Shown here: piece by piece, positions 9,701 to 19,766 of the stretch
Numbering within the stretch: the first letter of the stretch is position 1
Layout: the number at the start of each line of letters is the position of its first letter
Source of the DNA: Isosphaeraceae bacterium EP7
GTDB taxonomy: Bacteria; Planctomycetota; Planctomycetia; Isosphaerales; Isosphaeraceae
NCBI GenBank assembly: GCA_038400315.1
Contig: CP151667.1
Location: forward strand, 4,289,174-4,353,173
Length of the DNA: 64,000 bases
Direction: 5' to 3'
Notes under the pieces: generated by a model
What the model was told of the DNA's origin: nothing
Databases searched by the model: none
The model's input: the letters and a program-made list of their open reading frames with translations, nothing else
Made by a program: the position numbers and the translations under genes

Positions 9701-10483
9701 TCAGAAGGTCGGCTTGCCCTTGAGCAGCTCGTCTTCCCAGGCGTCGAGCAGGGGCCAGTCGACGGCACAGGTGCCGAAGTCGGCCATGTGGGTGTAGCCT
9801 TCCAGGCGGGCGATCGTGGCGTCGAGCAGGGCGTTGTCCTTGCGGAAGATCGGGCCGTGGGAAGGGAGGATGAATTTGGCGTCGCAGTCGCGGATGCGCT
9901 GGAGGCTGGCGATGTAGTCGACCAGGTTCGAGCCGTGGTGGGCGTCGATCACGCCGACGCAGCCGTCGCGGAAGATGTTGTCGCCGGAGAAGAGCAGGTC
10001 GCCCATCCGGAAGCTGAGCTGGCCGTCGGTGTGGCCCGGGGTGCTCCAGACTTCCAGCGACTTGTCGCCGACGGTCAGGACGTCACCCTCGTTGATGACC
10101 TGATCCACCTTGCACTTGGGCATCTTGATGTGGATGTTCTGGGCATCGATCCGGGCGTAGGTCGTGATCTCGTCGGCCTCTTCGAGCGGCTTGACGCTCT
10201 TGGGGTGCGCCAGGACCTTGGTGCGGAGCACGTCGCGGGCGCGGGCCAGGCCCTGGGTGTGGTCGACGTCGGCGTGCGTGGCGAGGATGAACTTGCAGGC
10301 GGAGAAGCTGAAGTTCATCTGCCGGATCAGCTCCAGCACGTCGGGAAGCTCATCCAGGAAGCCGACGTCGATGATCGCGAACTCGGTGCCGCCGTCGATG
10401 ATGTAGATGTTGACGCCAAGCCGCCTGCGTGCCTGGACATTCAGCTCGATGACGCCCGGGAAGACATATTGACGTTCGACCAT
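9701..10483 (-). CDS. MBL-fold metallo-hydrolase
   Basis: A metallo-beta-lactamase-fold hydrolase of 260 residues from the ATG at 10483. Metal ligands are visible in THADVDHTQG (HxDxDH-like with the second His replaced by Val-Asp-His spacing), STPGHTDGQL, SGDNIFRDG and LPSHGP. The fold hydrolyses thioesters, lactones, phosphodiesters or similar; the substrate here cannot be named. ATG codons at 10519 and 10594 would lengthen the protein; 10483 is preferred because the fold begins right after it (YVFPGVIELNVQ) and a GGAG precedes it. It is divergent from the BlaI-like gene. Confidence 0.82.
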   Translation of the reverse strand: MVERQYVFPGVIELNVQARRRLGVNIYIIDGGTEFAIIDVGFLDELPDVLELIRQMNFSFSACKFILATHADVDHTQGLARARDVLRTKVLAHPKSVKPLEEADEITTYARIDAQNIHIKMPKCKVDQVINEGDVLTVGDKSLEVWSTPGHTDGQLSFRMGDLLFSGDNIFRDGCVGVIDAHHGSNLVDYIASLQRIRDCDAKFILPSHGPIFRKDNALLDATIARLEGYTHMADFGTCAVDWPLLDAWEDELLKGKPTF

Positions 10484-10750
10484 TCCGGGACGAGCTCCAG
10501 GTGCGACGGGGGTCGGCATGTTGCGGGTGAGACGACCCAGCACGATCGCGTTGGGCGGCCCTTGGATCATACCCAGGGCCCCTCGACGCGGCAACCTCGC
10601 CCGGAGACCCGCCGGGCCCGCACATGCGTCATCCCGCCCGCCCGCGAGCCGTTTCCGGTGGGACCTGCGGACATTCCAGGAGAGGCCACATGGATCCCCG
10701 CTGAAGACGCCGGGGACAGGGGCGACCCGGGATTTCGCGGGAGAAGCCGC

Positions 10751-10803
10751 TTGACATGAGCGGCCGACCGTGCACTATGGGTCGTAGTACTACTGTCCAT
10801 AGT
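10751..10803 (+). promoter_or_regulatory. Promoter overlapped by a 30-bp palindromic operator (probable BlaI site)
   Basis: A consensus -35 TTGACA is at 10751-10756, and a -10-like TATGGG begins 19 bases later. Over it lies a symmetric element centred at 10788.5. The outer arms ACTATGG (10774-10780) and CCATAGT (10797-10803) surround an inner palindrome GTAGTACTAC (10784-10793). In total 24 of 30 positions are symmetric. BlaI/MecI operators are dyads built around TAC and GTA; the ATG of the BlaI-like gene is at 10816, so autoregulation is the simplest reading. Confidence 0.75.
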
Positions 10804-10815
10804 ATTGGAGGTCGC

Positions 10816-11220
10816 ATGGACGACGACACGCTCGACGAGCTTGGGGAGCTGCAGCGCTCGGCGCTCGAGGCCGTCTGGGAGCTGGGCGAGGCGAGCGTGC
10901 AGGGGGTGCGCGACCGGCTCGCCGAGTCGGGGCGCGGCGGGCTCGCCTATACGACCATCCTCAGCGTGATGCAGAAGCTCGAGAAGGCAGGCTGGCTCGA
11001 CCACAGGGCCGAAGGCCGGGTCTACATCTACAGGCCGACCAGGTCGAGGGACGAGGCCGACTCCTCGACGGCCAGGTCGCTGCTGCGCAGGGTGTTCGGG
11101 GGCGATCCGCTCCGGCTCTTCCAGCACATCATCGCCGACGAGGACCTGTCGGATCAGGACCTCGCGGCCCTTCGCAAGCTCATCGAGCGCAAACGCACGG
11201 AGAAAGGGAGGGGGGCATGA
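10816..11220 (+). CDS. BlaI/MecI/CopY-family transcriptional repressor
   Basis: The 134-residue protein has the BlaI winged helix at about 8-75. It is recognised by LGELQRSALEAVWELGEASV, the recognition-helix segment AYTTILSVMQKLEKAGWL and the wing HRAEGRVYIYRPTRS. The C-terminal dimerisation part follows. Family members repress until cleaved after a signal from a partner BlaR1 protease. Here the BlaR1-like gene follows with a 4-base overlap (ATGA), so the pair is coupled. The start at 10816 places the palindromic operator just upstream. What is regulated appears to be the operon itself including DUF1800 and DUF1501 genes, not an obvious beta-lactamase. Confidence 0.9.
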   Translation: MDDDTLDELGELQRSALEAVWELGEASVQGVRDRLAESGRGGLAYTTILSVMQKLEKAGWLDHRAEGRVYIYRPTRSRDEADSSTARSLLRRVFGGDPLRLFQHIIADEDLSDQDLAALRKLIERKRTEKGRGA

Positions 11221-14200
11221 TGACGGATTCGCTGAGCATGGCCACGCCCGCGTGGGTCGCGTTGGCCTGGCAAGTCGCATGGCAGTCGACCGCGGTGCTC
11301 GCCGCGGGCCTGGTCGCGTCGTGGACGGTGCCGATGCGGCCGTCGCGGGCCCATCGGATCCTCCTCGCCGCGGCGATCGCGTGCCTGATCGTCACACCCG
11401 CGTCGCTCATCGCACGCAGGTTCGACCTCGGCCTGCTCCCCCCGCGTCTCACGACCAATCCGCCCGAGGTTGCGGCCGAACCCGGGCCCTCTCCGCGGCC
11501 GACCCTGGCTTCGTCCGGGGTTGTGGCACCGCCTGTGAGCTTCGCTTCGGGGCGCGACATGGCGCGGCCCGAGGTCCAGCCCATCGGCTTCAATCCCACA
11601 CTGCAAGAACAGTCAGATGTCTCGATCTCGCCGGTGACCCCGAATCCGGTGGCGAGCGAGGCGTCGATCGTTTCGTTGATCCCGCCGGCCTGGGCCGTCC
11701 TGACACTCGTGGGCCTGTTGTCGCTGCTCGCATCCTACGCTCTTGGGCTGAGGCTCAAGGCCGGGGCCGCGATTCTCCGCGATGGCGACCTCGTGGAGGC
11801 GGCGGGATCGGCGTCCAGGAGCCTGGGAATGTCAATCGTGCCCGAGTTGCGGAGGTCACGCTCGGTGCGGTGCCCGGTCGTCTGGTGCTGGGGGCGGCGA
11901 CCCGTGCTCATCGTGCCGGATTCGCCGTCCGCCGCGGACACCGGCCACTGGTCGGCGATCTTCTGCCACGAGCTGGCGCACTGGACGCGCCGCGACCACC
12001 TCTCGGCGCTGGCCGGCGAGTTGCTCACCTGCCTCCTGCCTTGGCATCCGCTCGCCTGGACGTTGCGCGGCAGGATGGCCGACCTCTCGGAGCTTGCGTG
12101 CGACGACTGGGCGCTCGCCCATGCGCCCGGGGTCTCGCCGCCCGACTATGCCGCGTCGCTGCTCGGGCTGGCCGTCGACCGTCGCCGCCCGCTGGTCCCG
12201 TCGGCCGTCTCCCGTCGGTCGGGTCTCGGAGCCCGCGTCCGTCACATCCTCGAAGAGTCCGATCCGAGGCCACGCACCGGAGCCGCCTGGAACTCGCTCC
12301 TCCTCGGCCTTTCCCTGGGGCTGATCGTCACCCTCACGCTCGCCCAGGCCAGGCAAGCCCGGGCGATCGTTGCGGCGGCCGTGCCCCGCGTTGCGGACGA
12401 CGCGGCTCAGGGATCAGGAGGTGCAAGATTGACGACGATTGAAGGCACGGTCCGGGACATGAGCGGGAAGCCGCTGCCCGAGGCGGAGGTCCTCTGGATC
12501 GGAGTGGACGCGCCAACCCTCAGCCATGTCGCCATGCCGCACGACCATCCCGACTACGGCAGGCATGTCAACAAGGTCGTTGCTCGCGGCGTGGCCGACG
12601 ATCGCGGGAGATTCACCCTCTCAAGCTCGACCCAGAGGCCATCGAACGATCGGCCACTCGCGATGGTCGTCGCCCATGTCAAGGGCCTGGCCCCGGCGAG
12701 TTCCATCGCCGCTTTCGACGGCAAGCCGATCGAGATCGTCCTCCAACCTCCGGTGCCGATCGTCGGGCGGTTGATCACCCCCGGGGGCGAGCCCGCGGCC
12801 GGCGTCGTCGTCCGGCTCGAGACCTATTCCAACGGCTTCTGGCGCGATACCAAGACGGCCCGATACACCCAATATGGGATGGACGGGGAGGATTGGGACG
12901 CTCGGCCCAGGTTCTATCCGGGCGAATTCCGCACCGATGACGAGGGCAAGTTCGTCATCGACGGTTACGTGCCTGCGAATATGTTCGCGACCCTCACCCT
13001 CAGGCATCCCGACTACTCCGTCGAAGAGCTGACGGTCTCGACGGGGGCCAGCATCGAGCCGACTCCGGACCTGGCGGCCTTCAGCATCAGACCCTTGCCG
13101 CGAGAATTTACCCACACTCTCCTTCCGCCCCACCCGGTCGTCGGCCGGATTACGGACGCGGAGACCAAGGCCCCGCTGGCCGGGGTGACGGTCGAGGTCA
13201 CGCCGATGCGTAAGCACGGGGGGAAGCCGATCCGGAGCCTGACAGACGCCGACGGTCGCTATCGCGTCTCCGACCGCGAGGGAGAGCACTACTGGGTGGC
13301 CGTCTACCCGAAGTCCAGCTCGGGCTATCTCCCGGCCGAGCGGGGCATGGTCCAATGGAAAGACGGCGAATCCGACCTGCGGATCGACCTGCCACTCCGC
13401 CGCGGCGTCGTCATCCGAGGTCGGGTCATCGATGAGACGAACGGCGGGCCGATCGCCGGCGCCGGGGTCGTCTATCAGCCGAAACGAGGCAACCCACAGG
13501 TCCGCGCCGACGACGACTTCCGCAGCCCGACGATCACCGATTCCGAGGGCCGTTTCACGCTGACCGGCGTCCGTGGTCCCGGTGTCGTCGTCGCCGAGGG
13601 GCCTTCCGACTCCTACATACGCCGCGCGGTCGCCCCGATCGACTTCGGCCACACGTCGAGCCTTCACGTCCACGGCCTCGCCCGGATCGAGGTCCCCGCC
13701 GTGGGCGAGGGTTCCGAGGCGGTCGTCGGACTGAAACGCGGTTTTACCTTGGAGGCCAGGGTGACAGGGCCCGATGGCTCGCCGCTCGATTCGGTCCGCG
13801 CGTGGTGCCCGGAACTGAACGCGAGGCTCCTGGAGAATTGGGTCTCGCCCCTCATGTTCAGCGACGGCATCTTCCGCCTTCCGGGGGCCGAACCGGGTCG
13901 CACCTACCGCGTGTTCCTGCTCGATGAGGGCAGGAAATTCGGTGCGGTCGCCGAGCTGAAGGCCGACGCCGATCGCAAAGAGCCCCTTGAGGTCAGGCTC
14001 GCCCCCACGGCGACCGCCCATGGGCGGGTACTCGGCAACGACGGGAAGCCGCTCGAAGGATCTCAAATCCTTCCCAACATCCAGCTCGTCGATCAGGGGA
14101 GCGATCTGACCGAGAGAGACCGTTACGACCGGTTCGGCCTCCACATCTACTCGATGTTCACGGATGAGCCACTGAAACAGGTCTATCCGGCCGACTTTCG

Positions 14201-14357
14201 CTATGTAGGGCTCATCCCCGGGGTGCGTTACTTCGTGATGTGGAACAGCGGTGGAGTTCCCTGCTGGCGTGCGATCGAGCCCCTGAAGCCTGGCGAGGAT
14301 CGGGACCTGGGAGATATCCGGGCAGACAAGAAGAAGGAGGCCAAGGATGGGAACTGA
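11217..14357 (+). CDS. BlaR1-like M56 membrane metallopeptidase with long carboxypeptidase-regulatory-like C-terminus
   Basis: At 1046 residues this is much longer than BlaR1. Hydrophobic segments near 15-35, 42-60, 148-170 and 365-380 frame an M56 peptidase whose zinc site is HELAHWTRRDH (about residue 251) with a third-ligand candidate in LSELACDDWAL. Instead of a penicillin-binding sensor, residues ~400-1046 form several carboxypeptidase-regulatory-like (transthyretin-type) modules: TIEGTVRDMSGKPLPEAEV, VGRITDAETKAPLAGVTVEV, VIRGRVIDETNGGPIAGAGV and RVLGNDGKPLEG. By analogy, an extracellular signal bound by these modules would activate cytoplasmic cleavage of the BlaI-like repressor. The ligand is unknown. 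The 3' end overlaps the DUF1800 gene by 11 bases. Confidence 0.88.
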   Translation: MMTDSLSMATPAWVALAWQVAWQSTAVLAAGLVASWTVPMRPSRAHRILLAAAIACLIVTPASLIARRFDLGLLPPRLTTNPPEVAAEPGPSPRPTLASSGVVAPPVSFASGRDMARPEVQPIGFNPTLQEQSDVSISPVTPNPVASEASIVSLIPPAWAVLTLVGLLSLLASYALGLRLKAGAAILRDGDLVEAAGSASRSLGMSIVPELRRSRSVRCPVVWCWGRRPVLIVPDSPSAADTGHWSAIFCHELAHWTRRDHLSALAGELLTCLLPWHPLAWTLRGRMADLSELACDDWALAHAPGVSPPDYAASLLGLAVDRRRPLVPSAVSRRSGLGARVRHILEESDPRPRTGAAWNSLLLGLSLGLIVTLTLAQARQARAIVAAAVPRVADDAAQGSGGARLTTIEGTVRDMSGKPLPEAEVLWIGVDAPTLSHVAMPHDHPDYGRHVNKVVARGVADDRGRFTLSSSTQRPSNDRPLAMVVAHVKGLAPASSIAAFDGKPIEIVLQPPVPIVGRLITPGGEPAAGVVVRLETYSNGFWRDTKTARYTQYGMDGEDWDARPRFYPGEFRTDDEGKFVIDGYVPANMFATLTLRHPDYSVEELTVSTGASIEPTPDLAAFSIRPLPREFTHTLLPPHPVVGRITDAETKAPLAGVTVEVTPMRKHGGKPIRSLTDADGRYRVSDREGEHYWVAVYPKSSSGYLPAERGMVQWKDGESDLRIDLPLRRGVVIRGRVIDETNGGPIAGAGVVYQPKRGNPQVRADDDFRSPTITDSEGRFTLTGVRGPGVVVAEGPSDSYIRRAVAPIDFGHTSSLHVHGLARIEVPAVGEGSEAVVGLKRGFTLEARVTGPDGSPLDSVRAWCPELNARLLENWVSPLMFSDGIFRLPGAEPGRTYRVFLLDEGRKFGAVAELKADADRKEPLEVRLAPTATAHGRVLGNDGKPLEGSQILPNIQLVDQGSDLTERDRYDRFGLHIYSMFTDEPLKQVYPADFRYVGLIPGVRYFVMWNSGGVPCWRAIEPLKPGEDRDLGDIRADKKKEAKDGN

Positions 14358-15735
14358 CCCGGAATCTCCCTGGGATGGCGAGCCCGCCGCGGCCTGGGAG
14401 CCCTACGACCCGTCGCGCGACGGGGCCTGGGACCTAGCTCGCGTCGCGCATCTGCATCGTCGGGCAGGGTTCGGGGCCGGGGCGTCCCGCCTGGCCCGGG
14501 ACGTGAGCGACGGGCACGAGGCGTCGATCCGCCGCATCGTCGAAGGCGATCCCGTCGGCCCGGACGGCCGGACTCGCGCCGAGTTCGACGACCTGGCGGG
14601 CTCGATGACCGATTCCGCGCGGCGCGATCCCGCCATCGGCCGCGTGCGGCTCGCCTGGCTCTTCCGGCTCTTGAACGGCCCGCACCCGCTCCAGGAGCGG
14701 ATGACCCTGGCCTGGCACGGTCACTACGCGACAGGGGCGCGGAAGGTCGCGGATCCGCTCGCGATGCTCGATCAGGTCGAGGCGATGCGGGGGCTCTGGA
14801 ATGCTCCCGTCTCCAAACTCCACCGCGCCATGCTCGACTCCGCCGCGATGCAACTCTGGCTCGACGGACCTTCCAGCGATCGGGACAGGCCGAACGAGAA
14901 TCTCGGACGGGAGTTCCTCGAACTCTTCGCGCTCGGCGAGGGGGCATACGGCGAAGGCGACGTGAAGGCGGCCGCCCGCGCATTGACCGGATACCGCGTC
15001 GGCGGCGGAGCAGACCTGCGAGCTCGCTCCGTCGTCTTCGACCCGAAGCGGCACGACGGCGGCGAAAAACTCCTGCTCGGCGAGACTGGCCCCTGGGGTC
15101 CGGCCGACCTGGTGCGGATCGCCTCGAAGCAGCCGCCCGCCGCGCGTGCGGTGGCGCGGCGACTCTTCCTCACGTTCATCGACGACATCACCCCGCCGCC
15201 GGCCCCGCTCGTCGATGCGCTCGCGGATCTCATCCGCACGCCCGGCGATGTCGACGTCGCGCGGGGCATCCGGGTCGTCCTGGGTTCCCGCTGCTTCCAT
15301 TCGGGAGGGGTGCGGGGACGGAAGGTGAAGTCGCCGGTCGACTTTGTCGTGGGCCTGATTCGCACGACCGGCTGGTTCCGCCCCACACCTGACCCGATCA
15401 CGATCGACGTCTCGCTCACGCGGATGGGCCAGACGCTGCTCGACCCGCCGAGCGTCGCGGGGTGGTCGGGCGGATATTCGTGGCTCGGCGCCCCGCTGCT
15501 CATCGCCCGCGCCAACTTCATGGCGGAAATCACCTCGACGGCAGGCGCCGAGGCGAAGCTCAGGACGCTCCACGGCAAATCCAGGGGAGGCTCCCCGTCG
15601 TCGTGGGGCGCATCGGTCGCCGGGGCATTCGCACCTTGCGTCCAGGGGCCGGGCCTGCGAGGGGCGAAGGCCCCCGCGAGCTATGCCGAGGCCCTGCGGC
15701 TTGTCGCCTCGTATCCCGAAGCCCATCTCGCCTGA
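14347..15735 (+). CDS. DUF1800 family protein
   Basis: A DUF1800 protein of 462 residues, recognised by HLHRRAGFGA near the N-terminus, ERMTLAWHGHYATGARKV, and the diagnostic NENLGREFLELFALGEGAYG followed by DVKAAARALTGYRVGG. Function of the family is unknown; it is nearly always paired with DUF1501 in planctomycetes and other bacteria. No signal peptide is evident from the ATG at 14347, which has GGAGG six bases upstream. The start lies inside the BlaR1-like gene, so translation is coupled, and the DUF1501 gene follows 12 bases after the stop. Confidence 0.88.
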   Translation: MGTDPESPWDGEPAAAWEPYDPSRDGAWDLARVAHLHRRAGFGAGASRLARDVSDGHEASIRRIVEGDPVGPDGRTRAEFDDLAGSMTDSARRDPAIGRVRLAWLFRLLNGPHPLQERMTLAWHGHYATGARKVADPLAMLDQVEAMRGLWNAPVSKLHRAMLDSAAMQLWLDGPSSDRDRPNENLGREFLELFALGEGAYGEGDVKAAARALTGYRVGGGADLRARSVVFDPKRHDGGEKLLLGETGPWGPADLVRIASKQPPAARAVARRLFLTFIDDITPPPAPLVDALADLIRTPGDVDVARGIRVVLGSRCFHSGGVRGRKVKSPVDFVVGLIRTTGWFRPTPDPITIDVSLTRMGQTLLDPPSVAGWSGGYSWLGAPLLIARANFMAEITSTAGAEAKLRTLHGKSRGGSPSSWGASVAGAFAPCVQGPGLRGAKAPASYAEALRLVASYPEAHLA

Positions 15736-15747
15736 GGAGTCCAGGCC

Positions 15748-16911
15748 ATGAATCGACGCCGCTTCCTCTCGAACACGTCCGCCCTCCCGGTGTTCGGCTC
15801 TCTCCCGGGCCTCTGGAGTCGCGCGGCAGCCGCCGCAGGGCCTCAGTCGGACGCGCCCATCCTCGTCGTCGTCGAGTTGACCGGCGGCAATGACGGGCTG
15901 AACATGGTCATCCCTTACGTCGATGACGCCTATCACCGCGCACGTCCCACGATCGGGATCGCCGCCGACAAGGTGCTCAAACTCGATGATTCGATGGGCC
16001 TCCATCCGGCGATGACCGGCCTGCGGACCCAGTGGGACGCGGGGAAGCTGCGCGTGCTGATGAATGTCGGCTACCCGAGGCCGAGCCGATCGCACACGCG
16101 GGCGATGGAGATCTGGCAGTCCGGAGACGTCGCGCCGTTGCCGACCACGGGCTGGCTCGGCCGTTACTCGGAGATCACGCCGGAACGCTCCCCCTCCTGT
16201 TTCGTCGGCCCCGACAGCATGCCGCTCGCCGTCCGGGGCCGCAAGGTCGCCCCGTTCGCGCTCGGCGACATCAAGGCGATGACGCTCCGACCCGAGGCCG
16301 CGCTGACCCCGATTGCGGGCCTTGCGGAGACGTCGACTCCGGCGGGTCGCGTGGCGAAGGCGATGGAGGCGGCTCGCTCGATTGCCGATCGGGTCGCGGC
16401 GATGCGCCCGGACGATGCCACCGCAGGGCGAGAAGGCCTGGAAGTGAAGCTCGCAGTGATCCGCCGGCTCATCGAGTCGGGCTCAGGGTCGAGGGTCTAT
16501 TACACCTCGCTCGACGGCTTCGACACGCACGCCGGGCAGGAATTCGCCCATCAAAGCCTGCTAGGAACGCTGTCCAAGGCGCTTGCTCGCTTCCAGGCCG
16601 ACCTCGAAGCGAGCAAGCTCGACGATCGCGTGGTCGTGCTCGTCTTCTCCGAATTCGGTCGACGTCTCGAAGAGAACGGGTCGAAGGGGACCGACCACGG
16701 AGCGGCCGCGCCTGTTCTCCTCCTAGGCTCGGGGGTCGCAGGCGGTCTCCTCGGCGGGCCGCCGGATCTCCGGGACCTCGACGAAGGGGATGTCCGCTTC
16801 ACCCTCGATTTCCGCGACCTTTATGCGTCATTGCTGGCGGATTGGCTCGGCGTCGACCCGACCCCGGTGGTCGGCCGGGGCCAGGAGGGTCGTCTTCACC
16901 TGTTCCGTTGA
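15748..16911 (+). CDS. DUF1501 family secreted protein (alkaline-phosphatase-like fold)
   Basis: The 387-residue protein starts with a Tat-type signal (MNRRRFLSNTSALPVFGS...) and continues with DUF1501 hallmarks: VVVELTGGNDGLNMVIPYVD, GLHPAM, DGFDTHAGQE and VLVFSEFGRRLEENGSKGTD followed by HG. The family has a sulfatase/alkaline-phosphatase-like fold, but enzymatic function is not established. The Tat signal implies folding in the cytoplasm and export to the periplasm. It ends the BlaI-BlaR1-DUF1800-DUF1501 unit; its stop is only three bases from the stop of the convergent recJ gene. Confidence 0.9.
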   Translation: MNRRRFLSNTSALPVFGSLPGLWSRAAAAAGPQSDAPILVVVELTGGNDGLNMVIPYVDDAYHRARPTIGIAADKVLKLDDSMGLHPAMTGLRTQWDAGKLRVLMNVGYPRPSRSHTRAMEIWQSGDVAPLPTTGWLGRYSEITPERSPSCFVGPDSMPLAVRGRKVAPFALGDIKAMTLRPEAALTPIAGLAETSTPAGRVAKAMEAARSIADRVAAMRPDDATAGREGLEVKLAVIRRLIESGSGSRVYYTSLDGFDTHAGQEFAHQSLLGTLSKALARFQADLEASKLDDRVVVLVFSEFGRRLEENGSKGTDHGAAAPVLLLGSGVAGGLLGGPPDLRDLDEGDVRFTLDFRDLYASLLADWLGVDPTPVVGRGQEGRLHLFR

Positions 16912-16914
16912 GTC

Positions 16915-18711
16915 TCAATGTTCGGCTTCGGCCGCACCTTCGAGGAGGCGGATGTCCTTGATTTCGAGCTGGATGGTGCGGCGGCCGTTCCACTCGTTGA
17001 TGGCGGGGTGGTAGGCCAGGTCGACGAGCATGCCGGCCTTGAGGTGCTTGTAGCGTTCGCCCATGTTCCAGCCCACCGCCTCGACGGTGGCCGTGCCGTG
17101 GGCCACGCGGAGCTTGATGTGCTTGCCCTCGGTCATCGTCTTGGGGTCGCCGACGAGCCGGACGCCGGAGGTCGCCAGGATCGGCCTGAGGTTGCCGATC
17201 CCGTGGGGTTCGAGGGCCTCGATCTGCTCGGCCACGCGGATGGTGAGCATGGCCAGCTCGATCTCGGCGTCGATCGACAGCTCCTTGACCAGGGCCTCGG
17301 GCATGATCGCGTCGCGGCAATGGCGGTCGAACAGCTCGGTGAACTGCGGGAGCGAGGCGGCGGGGAGGCGGACGCCCGCGGCTGCGGAGTGGCCACCGAA
17401 CGCGCTCAGCACGTCGCCGCAGGCTTTCAGGGCGTCGTACAGGTTGAAGCCCGGGATGGACCGGGCCGAGCCCTGTCCTCGTTCGCCGTCCAGGGCGATG
17501 ATGACGGTGGGCCGGTGGAACATCTCGGCGATCCGGCCGGCGACGATGCCGATGACGCCCGGATGCCAGCCCTCGCGGGCCAGGACGATGCCCCGGCGCT
17601 CGTCCATTCCGCCCAGCTCGTCGAGCATGGAGCGGGCCTCGGCGACCATCCGCGCCTCGACCTCGCGGCGGCGGACGTTGCACTCATCCAGCCCTCGGGC
17701 GAGCACCATGGCCCGCGCGGCGTCGTCGGTCGTGAGCATCTCGACGGCGTGCATCGCCCGTTCAAGCCGCCCCGCCGCGTTGATCCTCGGCCCGAGGGTG
17801 AAGCCGACGTGGCCGCTGGTGATCTTCAGCTTATCCTTCAGGCCAGAGACCTCGATGAGCGCCTGAAGGCCCGCCGATGGGGCGCGGTTCAGCCCATCCA
17901 GGCCGTGCTTGACCAGCACCCGGTTCTCGCCGAAGAGGGGGACCATGTCGGCCACGGTGGCCATGGCGACCATGCCCATGGCGTTGATGAGGAACCCGCG
18001 CATGTGGGGTGACGCCTTCTTGCCATCACCGAAGGTCTTGGCCATCTGCCAGGCGAGCTTGAAGGCGACCCCACAGCCGCAGAGCTCGGGAAACGGGTAT
18101 TGGCTGCCGATCAGCTTGGGATGGACCAGCGCAGCGGCCTCGGGGAGCCGATCGCCGATGGTGTGATGATCGGTGACGATGAATTCGAGGCCCAGCTCCC
18201 GGGCGAGCTCCGCCTCGGCCACCGCCGAGATGCCGCAGTCGACGGTGACGACCAGCTCGGCCCCCTCGGCGGCCAGCTTGCGCAGGGCGTCGGCGCTGAC
18301 GCCGTAGCCTTCCTCGACGCGGTGGGGGATGTAGTACTCGACGTTGGTGGCGCCTGCGAGTTTCAGGCAGTGCCAGAGGATGCTCGTGCCGCAGACGCCG
18401 TCGACGTCGTAGTCACCATAGATGACGACCTTGCGGTTGGCCCGGACGGCGGCCACGATCCGGTCGGCGGCCTCGACGATGCCGGGGAGGCTTTCGGGGT
18501 CGTGCAGCCCCTTCATCTTCGCTTCGAGGAACTCGGATGCGGTGATCGCGTCGCGGATCCCCCGATTCCAGAGCAGGTGGGCAAGCAGCGGTGGGAGGCC
18601 CGACTCGCGAGCTAGCTCCTCGATGGGCCCCCGGTCGAAGGGCCTGAAGCGCCAGCGTGGGGCGAGCATCCGGGGTCTCTCGCGGGCCTGCGGGACGAGG
18701 TCGATGGCCAT
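16915..18711 (-). CDS. recJ: Single-stranded-DNA-specific exonuclease RecJ
   Basis: RecJ degrades single-stranded DNA 5' to 3' in recombination and repair. The 598-residue product shows the DHH motifs: VVIYGDYDVDGVCGTSIL (motif I), VTVDCGI, VTDHHTIGDRLP (motif III) and the GPRINAAGRL segment. The DHHA1 GGHSAAAGVRL follows, then a C-terminal OB-like part (IGNLRPILATSGV). The ATG at 18711 overlaps the corA stop (TGATG), which is preferred over an ATG nine bases upstream. Length is normal. It is the last gene of a probable minus-strand operon beginning at 22359. Confidence 0.93.
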   Translation of the reverse strand: MAIDLVPQARERPRMLAPRWRFRPFDRGPIEELARESGLPPLLAHLLWNRGIRDAITASEFLEAKMKGLHDPESLPGIVEAADRIVAAVRANRKVVIYGDYDVDGVCGTSILWHCLKLAGATNVEYYIPHRVEEGYGVSADALRKLAAEGAELVVTVDCGISAVAEAELARELGLEFIVTDHHTIGDRLPEAAALVHPKLIGSQYPFPELCGCGVAFKLAWQMAKTFGDGKKASPHMRGFLINAMGMVAMATVADMVPLFGENRVLVKHGLDGLNRAPSAGLQALIEVSGLKDKLKITSGHVGFTLGPRINAAGRLERAMHAVEMLTTDDAARAMVLARGLDECNVRRREVEARMVAEARSMLDELGGMDERRGIVLAREGWHPGVIGIVAGRIAEMFHRPTVIIALDGERGQGSARSIPGFNLYDALKACGDVLSAFGGHSAAAGVRLPAASLPQFTELFDRHCRDAIMPEALVKELSIDAEIELAMLTIRVAEQIEALEPHGIGNLRPILATSGVRLVGDPKTMTEGKHIKLRVAHGTATVEAVGWNMGERYKHLKAGMLVDLAYHPAINEWNGRRTIQLEIKDIRLLEGAAEAEH

Positions 18712-19766
18712 CAGAACCATCCGCGGAGGCGGCTCCAGAACCAGAGGACGTAGGGGGTGGCCGCCATCACGATGACCGACGCCCAGAACAAGGTGGCCTT
18801 GGGCAGGGGGGGGCCGGTGAACTCCAGCGTCTGGCCGAAGAAGTTCATGCCGAAGAACCCCACCAGGAAGGTCATCGGCAGGAACATCACCGTGACCAGC
18901 GTCAGAGTTTTCATGATGTCGTTGGTCCGGTTCGAAACCGCCGAGAGATAGGTATCGAGCGCCCCCGAGATCAGGTCGCGCAGGCTCTCGGCGATGTCGT
19001 GGGTCCGGACCAGGTGATCGTAAATGTCGCGGAAGTAGACGCGATTCTCCGCGTGGATCTGGGCGAATGGGTCGCGGGCCAGGCGATTCATGATTTCGCG
19101 CTGGGGGGAGAGGGTGCGGTAGAGCCGCAGGCTCGCCCGTTTGATGCGGAAGATGCGCTTGAGGGTCCTGGGCCTGGCCTTCTTGAAGACTTCGTCCTGG
19201 GCCGCGTCGATGGCATCATCCAGGTGTTCGATGGCGGGCAGATATTCGGCGACGATCGCGTCGAGCAGGTGATAGAGGAGATGCTCGGCACCCCGGCCAT
19301 TGCGGTTGCTAGGGTCGCGCTCGATGTTCCGACGGTGCTGGTCGAGGGCGTTGATCGGCTCGGTGTGGTACGTCAGTAAATAGTTCACGCCCAGGAAGAT
19401 ATCCAGCTCGTGCATGCCGAGCTTCTCGTCGCGTTTCCGGAAGTCGATGGTATGAAAGACCAGGTAGAGGTAGCTGCCCCAGTCGTCGAGCTTGGCGATG
19501 TGGGTTTGCTGGAGCGCATCCTCGATGGCCAGCGGGTGGAACTGGAAGGTATCGCGCATCAAGGTCTCGGCCTCGGCGGTGACCGTCCCCGGGTCCTCGA
19601 TGTCGATCCAGACGCAACCCTCGCGGTCGTCGAGGGCCTGCTGGAGCTGTTCCCTGGGCCAATCGCGGTGCAGCTCTCCCGAGCTTGAGCGGTAGAGGAC
19701 CGAGATCGCTGGGTCGGTCTTCGACCCCTGGGCGGGGGCTTCGGCGGTGGTTTCCGAGGTCGCCAT
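18711..19766 (-). CDS. corA: CorA-family magnesium/divalent cation transporter
   Basis: The 351-residue protein has a large cytoplasmic alpha/beta domain followed by two C-terminal membrane helices. The signature GMN is in FLVGFFGMNFFGQT just after the first helix; the second helix is ATLFWASVIVMAATPYVLWF. CorA forms pentamers that admit Mg2+ (or Co2+ and Ni2+). The N-terminus carries WIDIEDPG and AIEDALQQTHIAKLDDWGSY, typical of the family. The stop overlaps the recJ start by one base, and a small lipoprotein gene lies 35 bases upstream. Confidence 0.93.
   Translation of the reverse strand: MATSETTAEAPAQGSKTDPAISVLYRSSSGELHRDWPREQLQQALDDREGCVWIDIEDPGTVTAEAETLMRDTFQFHPLAIEDALQQTHIAKLDDWGSYLYLVFHTIDFRKRDEKLGMHELDIFLGVNYLLTYHTEPINALDQHRRNIERDPSNRNGRGAEHLLYHLLDAIVAEYLPAIEHLDDAIDAAQDEVFKKARPRTLKRIFRIKRASLRLYRTLSPQREIMNRLARDPFAQIHAENRVYFRDIYDHLVRTHDIAESLRDLISGALDTYLSAVSNRTNDIMKTLTLVTVMFLPMTFLVGFFGMNFFGQTLEFTGPPLPKATLFWASVIVMAATPYVLWFWSRLRGWF

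Follow-up and report, generated by a model that had tools for sequence, protein, structure and literature searches.

A putative autoregulated BlaI-M56 switch preceding a DUF1800/DUF1501 gene pair in an Isosphaeraceae planctomycete

Beta-lactam induction in Staphylococcus is governed by the BlaR1-BlaI and MecR1-MecI systems, in which a repressor gene is paired with the gene of an HExxH metalloprotease, the operator is a dyad lying over the promoter, and a C-terminal extracytoplasmic domain follows the last transmembrane (TM) segment of the protease. The scissile bond of MecI is N101-F102. The locus described here shares the gene pair, the protease motif, the dyad and the C-terminal domain, but its repressor lacks a conserved N-F site, the place of the penicillin-binding sensor is taken by a tail of ~650 residues of CarboxypepD_reg modules, and its target would be a DUF1800/DUF1501 pair in the same operon.

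ECF sigma factors that are anchored in the membrane and extended at the C-terminus are also known, for instance ECF52 SCO4117 and ECF243 IutY (PMC8999054), and likewise join a transmembrane transducer and an outside sensor part to the control of transcription. Relatives of the present locus carry a tail of the same type on ECF heads, whereas the head in the window is a protease that would work with a separate repressor. DUF1501-DUF1800 pairs, for their part, occur in bacterial chitin synthase operons, and a Tat signal and export have been proposed for DUF1501 (PMC5122149). The same conserved pair is found here, not with a chitin synthase but with a dedicated BlaI-M56 switch, or in relatives an ECF one. 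Both families are widespread in bacteria, and no paper was found that assigns a function to either; literature searches in planctomycetes for BlaI with M56, and for ECF with carboxypeptidase-regulatory domains, likewise found none. A dedicated switch with a single operator would offer a way to the signal, and hence to the function of DUF1800/DUF1501.

Gene layout and the putative operator

The window, that is the whole stretch of 64,000 nucleotides that was analysed (G000:C1:4289174-4353173), lies within the 7.2-Mb genome of an Isosphaeraceae planctomycete. Four genes follow one another on its plus strand at 10816-16911, encoding a BlaI/MecI-family repressor of 134 aa (10816..11220; PF03965, 8.4e-26; 81% identical to the G023 orthologue), a BlaR1-like M56 membrane metalloprotease of 1046 aa with a CarboxypepD_reg tail (11217..14357; PF05569, PF13620), a DUF1800 protein of 462 aa (14347..15735; PF08811, 1.4e-75) and a DUF1501 protein of 387 aa (15748..16911; PF07394, 2.3e-30). 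All domains score above their Pfam cut-offs, with 91 bits for Penicillinase_R (cut-off 22.6), 52.6 for Peptidase_M56, 95 for CarboxypepD_reg, 255 for DUF1800 and 106 for DUF1501. An ATG at 10756 opens a longer blaI reading frame, with homologues favouring the start at 10816. The tight packing described in the first-pass annotation agrees with these coordinates: blaI and the M56 gene overlap by ATGA, the M56 and DUF1800 genes overlap by 11 bp, and 12 bp separate DUF1800 from DUF1501. The operon consists of these four genes and nothing more; a putative recJ-like gene, so named from its sequence, lies convergently on the opposite strand directly downstream (16915-18720), and a metallo-beta-lactamase (MBL)-fold gene diverges from the operon upstream (9701-10594, minus strand).

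Ahead of blaI, a -35-like TTGACA (10751..10756, plus strand) stands 16 bp before a -10-like hexamer, which forms the first six bases of an imperfect palindrome, the putative BlaI operator (10773..10804, plus strand). The palindrome had been said to cover the promoter; it does cover the -10 box and beyond, but leaves the -35 box uncovered. As far as sequence can tell, the putative site is thus a dyad overlapping its own promoter, as in BlaI and MecI repressors. Its self-complementarity, 24/30 positions, was equalled in 9/1000 shuffles of intergenic DNA, which is modest evidence alone, and conservation was therefore used as the real evidence. In a promoter alignment of the window with G023, G033, G004, G014 and G441, gap-free across the 32 bp, the operator averages 1.52 bits of information per column, as against 0.72 on one side of it and 0.76 on the other, and it is thereby conserved in six genomes, the five others coming from three other genera. 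The consensus is TACTAT-N4-CG-W-AGTACTAY-N6-TAGTA, with CACTAT as the first hexamer in the window. TTGAC is found 16-17 bp before that hexamer in all six orthologous promoters, a constancy of spacing that argues for the left end of the operator serving as the -10 box.

When the pattern was searched with up to three mismatches, each of five genomes held exactly one site, placed before the orthologous blaI, so that, as far as this motif reveals a regulon, it comprises just the operon. The first-pass annotation had named a palindrome not conserved upstream of homologues as a ground for refutation; alignment and pattern search together show it conserved there. The G439 promoter has a site with two mismatches, and in G028 (L255) the motif has gone where the operon has decayed. 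In paralogous operons other inverted repeats can be read by eye at the same place, for instance TCTACGGG...CGTAG in L055/L056/L140 and GGTAAATTTACC in L153/L155. The evidence for the operon and its operator is strong.

Repressor, protease and payload

The repressor has a Penicillinase_R winged-helix domain and matches the MecI structure 1okr (E 2.6e-5). At the residues aligned with the MecI scissile bond it reads H104-I105, and the orthologues read H-L, R-L and similar, so that cleavage at that particular bond is unsupported. Proteolytic derepression is nonetheless likely by homology, with a non-canonical site.

In the M56 protein the protease motif HELAH is intact at residues 251-255, as is ELACDD at 292. 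Hydropathy gives TM candidates at 20-38 (weak), 48-66, 160-178 and 360-378, which suggests a BlaR1-like topology of four membrane segments and then the tail. The predicted extracytoplasmic tail occupies about residues 391-1046 (12387..14354, plus strand) and consists of transthyretin-like CarboxypepD_reg modules (PF13620), as had been claimed for some 650 residues at this C-terminus. Pfam finds only CarboxypepD_reg-like or related domains after residue 390, and no PBP-like domain; NCBIfam blaR1_generic reaches 30.8 bits, against a cut-off of 400, and on the M56 part only. The first-pass annotation spoke of a penicillin sensor that had been lost; its absence is established, but loss as such goes beyond the evidence.

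This absence bears on the idea that the locus senses beta-lactams or cell-wall stress as BlaR1/MecR1 do, with only the target replaced. Matches to the BlaI and M56 domains, a weak sequence match to solved BlaR1 (E 0.017) and the adjoining MBL-fold gene all fit such a sensor. However, the M56 protein has no PBP-like sensor, the operon has no beta-lactamase gene, and the MBL-fold gene is divergent while the operator is found only at blaI. A beta-lactam sensor is thus quite improbable, and the surface signal would be of another kind.

It is probable instead that the locus is a self-contained, autoregulated proteolytic switch, which in response to an envelope signal controls an exported protein of the AlkP superfamily together with its partner. 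Gene order, a conserved operator site that occurs once per genome searched and an intact protease motif are read from the DNA, and on them the following scheme can be built. The four genes would form one autoregulated operon, which at rest is kept low by the BlaI-like repressor sitting on 10773-10804 and covering the -10 box. The M56 protein would span the membrane about four times, with its zinc-protease site in the cytoplasm and the CarboxypepD_reg residues outside. Binding of an envelope signal to the tail would activate the protease, and the active protease would inactivate BlaI, by cleavage as with BlaR1, so that the operon is expressed. The payload would be DUF1800 and a Tat-exported DUF1501 of the AlkP superfamily.

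The assignment of DUF1501 comes from a predicted model (pLDDT 82), for which Foldseek returns 104 matches at E<=0.001; the best 50 of the 104 are sulfatases, LtaS and other AlkP-superfamily enzymes. The model aligns best to nucleotide pyrophosphatase/phosphodiesterases (VIA Z 19.0 over 248 residues, NPP3), and the predicted fold is that of AlkP. Residues D49, D259, H261, D316 and H317 are invariant in 41 sequences and, judged from sequence, are Asp/His positions expected of AlkP-type enzymes. Residues 301-304 read SEFG, resembling the SDHG of phosphodiesterases, and this substitution suggests that one site may be altered and that catalysis may differ. The twin-arginine at residues 3-4, invariant in 41 homologues, points to export by the Tat route.

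In the case of DUF1800, no signal peptide is visible in these operons, the N-terminus being free of hydrophobic stretches, and the protein may remain in the cell or be carried out together with DUF1501. The model, predicted with confidence (pLDDT 93), is all-helical, and Foldseek returns no PDB structure for it at E <1, which does not by itself prove a new fold; sequence searches of solved structures gave nothing useful for either protein. We infer that DUF1800 is the partner of DUF1501 and that the two cooperate.

The operon in relatives

In 45 genomes of the family there are nine closest BlaI matches (E<=1e-25). The order blaI, one or two M56, DUF1800 and DUF1501, which the first-pass annotation had offered as a check on its reading, is found in the window genome (G000) and kept in G023, G033, G004 and G014. 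The exceptions are G441, with blaI-M56-M56-DUF1800 and no DUF1501 found; G439, with blaI-M56 and a truncated DUF1800 (a 123-residue piece); G009, with blaI-M56 alone; and G028, with blaI and a tail fragment only. Some close relatives thus lack the link between switch and payload, as G009 and G028 show. A search of the whole phylum for near relatives of this BlaI turned up just two in other families (G252, G074), neither beside DUF1800.

It might be supposed that blaI-M56 came to lie beside DUF1800-DUF1501 by chance, given that BlaI genes are plentiful in planctomycetes (11-22 per genome in the five searched; 11 BlaI and 11 M56 matches in the window genome) and that many DUF1800 pairs have no BlaI; the window genome has two DUF1800 genes, just one of them in a BlaI operon. 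Yet the reading frames overlap, and the order is shared by several genera and by paralogous operons of different BlaI-M56 lineages, which keep it with different operators. Such conservation contradicts chance, which is hardly credible as an explanation.

Individual loci show further variation. The M56-tail gene is duplicated in tandem inside the operon in three genomes (L039:8750-15272, L041:8474-14736, L254:7973-14087). The G028 locus (L255:1882-3110) lacks the M56 core, both payload genes and the operator, and resembles a copy of the operon that has decayed. In the window genome itself, L051:3521-7215 holds blaI-M56 with a tail and promoter like those of the L055/L056 operons and no adjacent DUF1800, and is perhaps an orphaned switch.

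Exchange of heads upstream of DUF1800

Classification of 49 planctomycete DUF1800 loci by upstream gene, window included, places blaI-M56-tail directly upstream in 15, an ECF sigma factor fused to a tail in nine, another tail protein in two (one of them L119, described below), a ~590-residue protein in 19, a HEAT-repeat protein in two (Pfam run on one) and none in the remaining two. Some ECF fusions were recognised by Pfam and the remainder by HMM or N-terminal sequence; those scanned by Pfam have sigma domains, and the fusions have one main TM segment between sigma and tail. A single-sequence contig scan found no relatives, while an alignment-based scan gave 80 loci; only four of these (L167-L170, all planctomycete) have a tail gene, BlaI-M56 or an ECF-tail gene ahead of DUF1800, so that within this sample the coupling seems restricted to Planctomycetota.

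In a bootstrapped DUF1800 tree (a quick tree with outgroups was also made), all tail-coupled rows, which belong to Planctomycetia, form one clade with support of 100/99, within which the cytoplasmic head is by turns BlaI-M56 or an ECF sigma factor anchored in the membrane. A single clade of BlaI-M56 rows was rejected, its log-likelihood being 252 lower (p-AU 4.65e-45). To place these rows on the tree takes four changes, of which well-supported branches force three or more, on a modest taxon sampling that leaves several forks open. The DUF1800-linked M56 heads, for their part, scatter among unlinked M56 heads in several lineages, with five changes forced. In M56-ECF pairs, the more alike the two tails, the more alike the two DUF1800 proteins (double-centred r 0.93, row and column means removed; 0/5000 permutations; r 0.94 with representatives), which argues for co-inheritance of tail and DUF1800 and exchange of the switch. 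On these sequence comparisons, the simplest account is that tail and DUF1800 descended as a unit and the head upstream was substituted several times, the count and direction being provisional.

The same covariation across two transducer types, together with the fact that the tail accompanies the pair whether it is borne on BlaI-M56, fused to an ECF or free-standing, might be taken to mean that the tail binds DUF1501 after export, alone or along with DUF1800, or binds their product, and that the switch monitors by feedback how much of its own payload is present or exported. However, plain co-inheritance of adjacent genes yields the same pattern, and L051 of the window genome and L096 of G033 have related tails with no DUF1800 neighbour. 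The pattern is one of co-inherited neighbours and no proof of contact between tail and payload, and feedback of this kind is a tentative and rather unlikely alternative to the relay of an envelope signal.

Under the relay, the tail would be tied to the DUF1800/DUF1501 pair and not to the switch, since relatives mount such a tail on a membrane ECF or place it after a separate ECF and kinase. It is somewhat more likely than not that the CarboxypepD_reg tails are a dedicated DUF1800/DUF1501 sensor, mounted several times on BlaI-M56, membrane ECF and ECF-kinase transducers, with sensor and payload unchanged but the logic differing, derepression in some cases and activation in others. If true, the repeated swap of repressor-protease and sigma factor on one type of sensor would show plainly how transmembrane signalling is rewired module by module in nature. 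Overall, the earlier reading of a BlaI-BlaR1-like switch acting on DUF1800/DUF1501 is supported, and is extended by the head exchange in relatives, which lay beyond what that annotation could see.

Three further arrangements were observed upstream of DUF1800. In G004, L119:4745-10681 holds a separate ECF sigma factor, a Ser/Thr kinase with WD40 repeats and a headless, stand-alone CarboxypepD_reg protein, which is a third transducer arrangement. A ~590-residue protein without Pfam match in the copies scanned, exemplified by L043:3114-4910 in the window genome, precedes most other DUF1800-DUF1501 pairs of the family; those compared are 24-47% identical to the L043 copy, and the protein is possibly an older third partner. 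Lastly, in L152:3228-8753 and L157:3219-8804 a protein of ~1850 residues stands directly before DUF1800, with 27 HEAT_2 stretches in L152 (Pfam).
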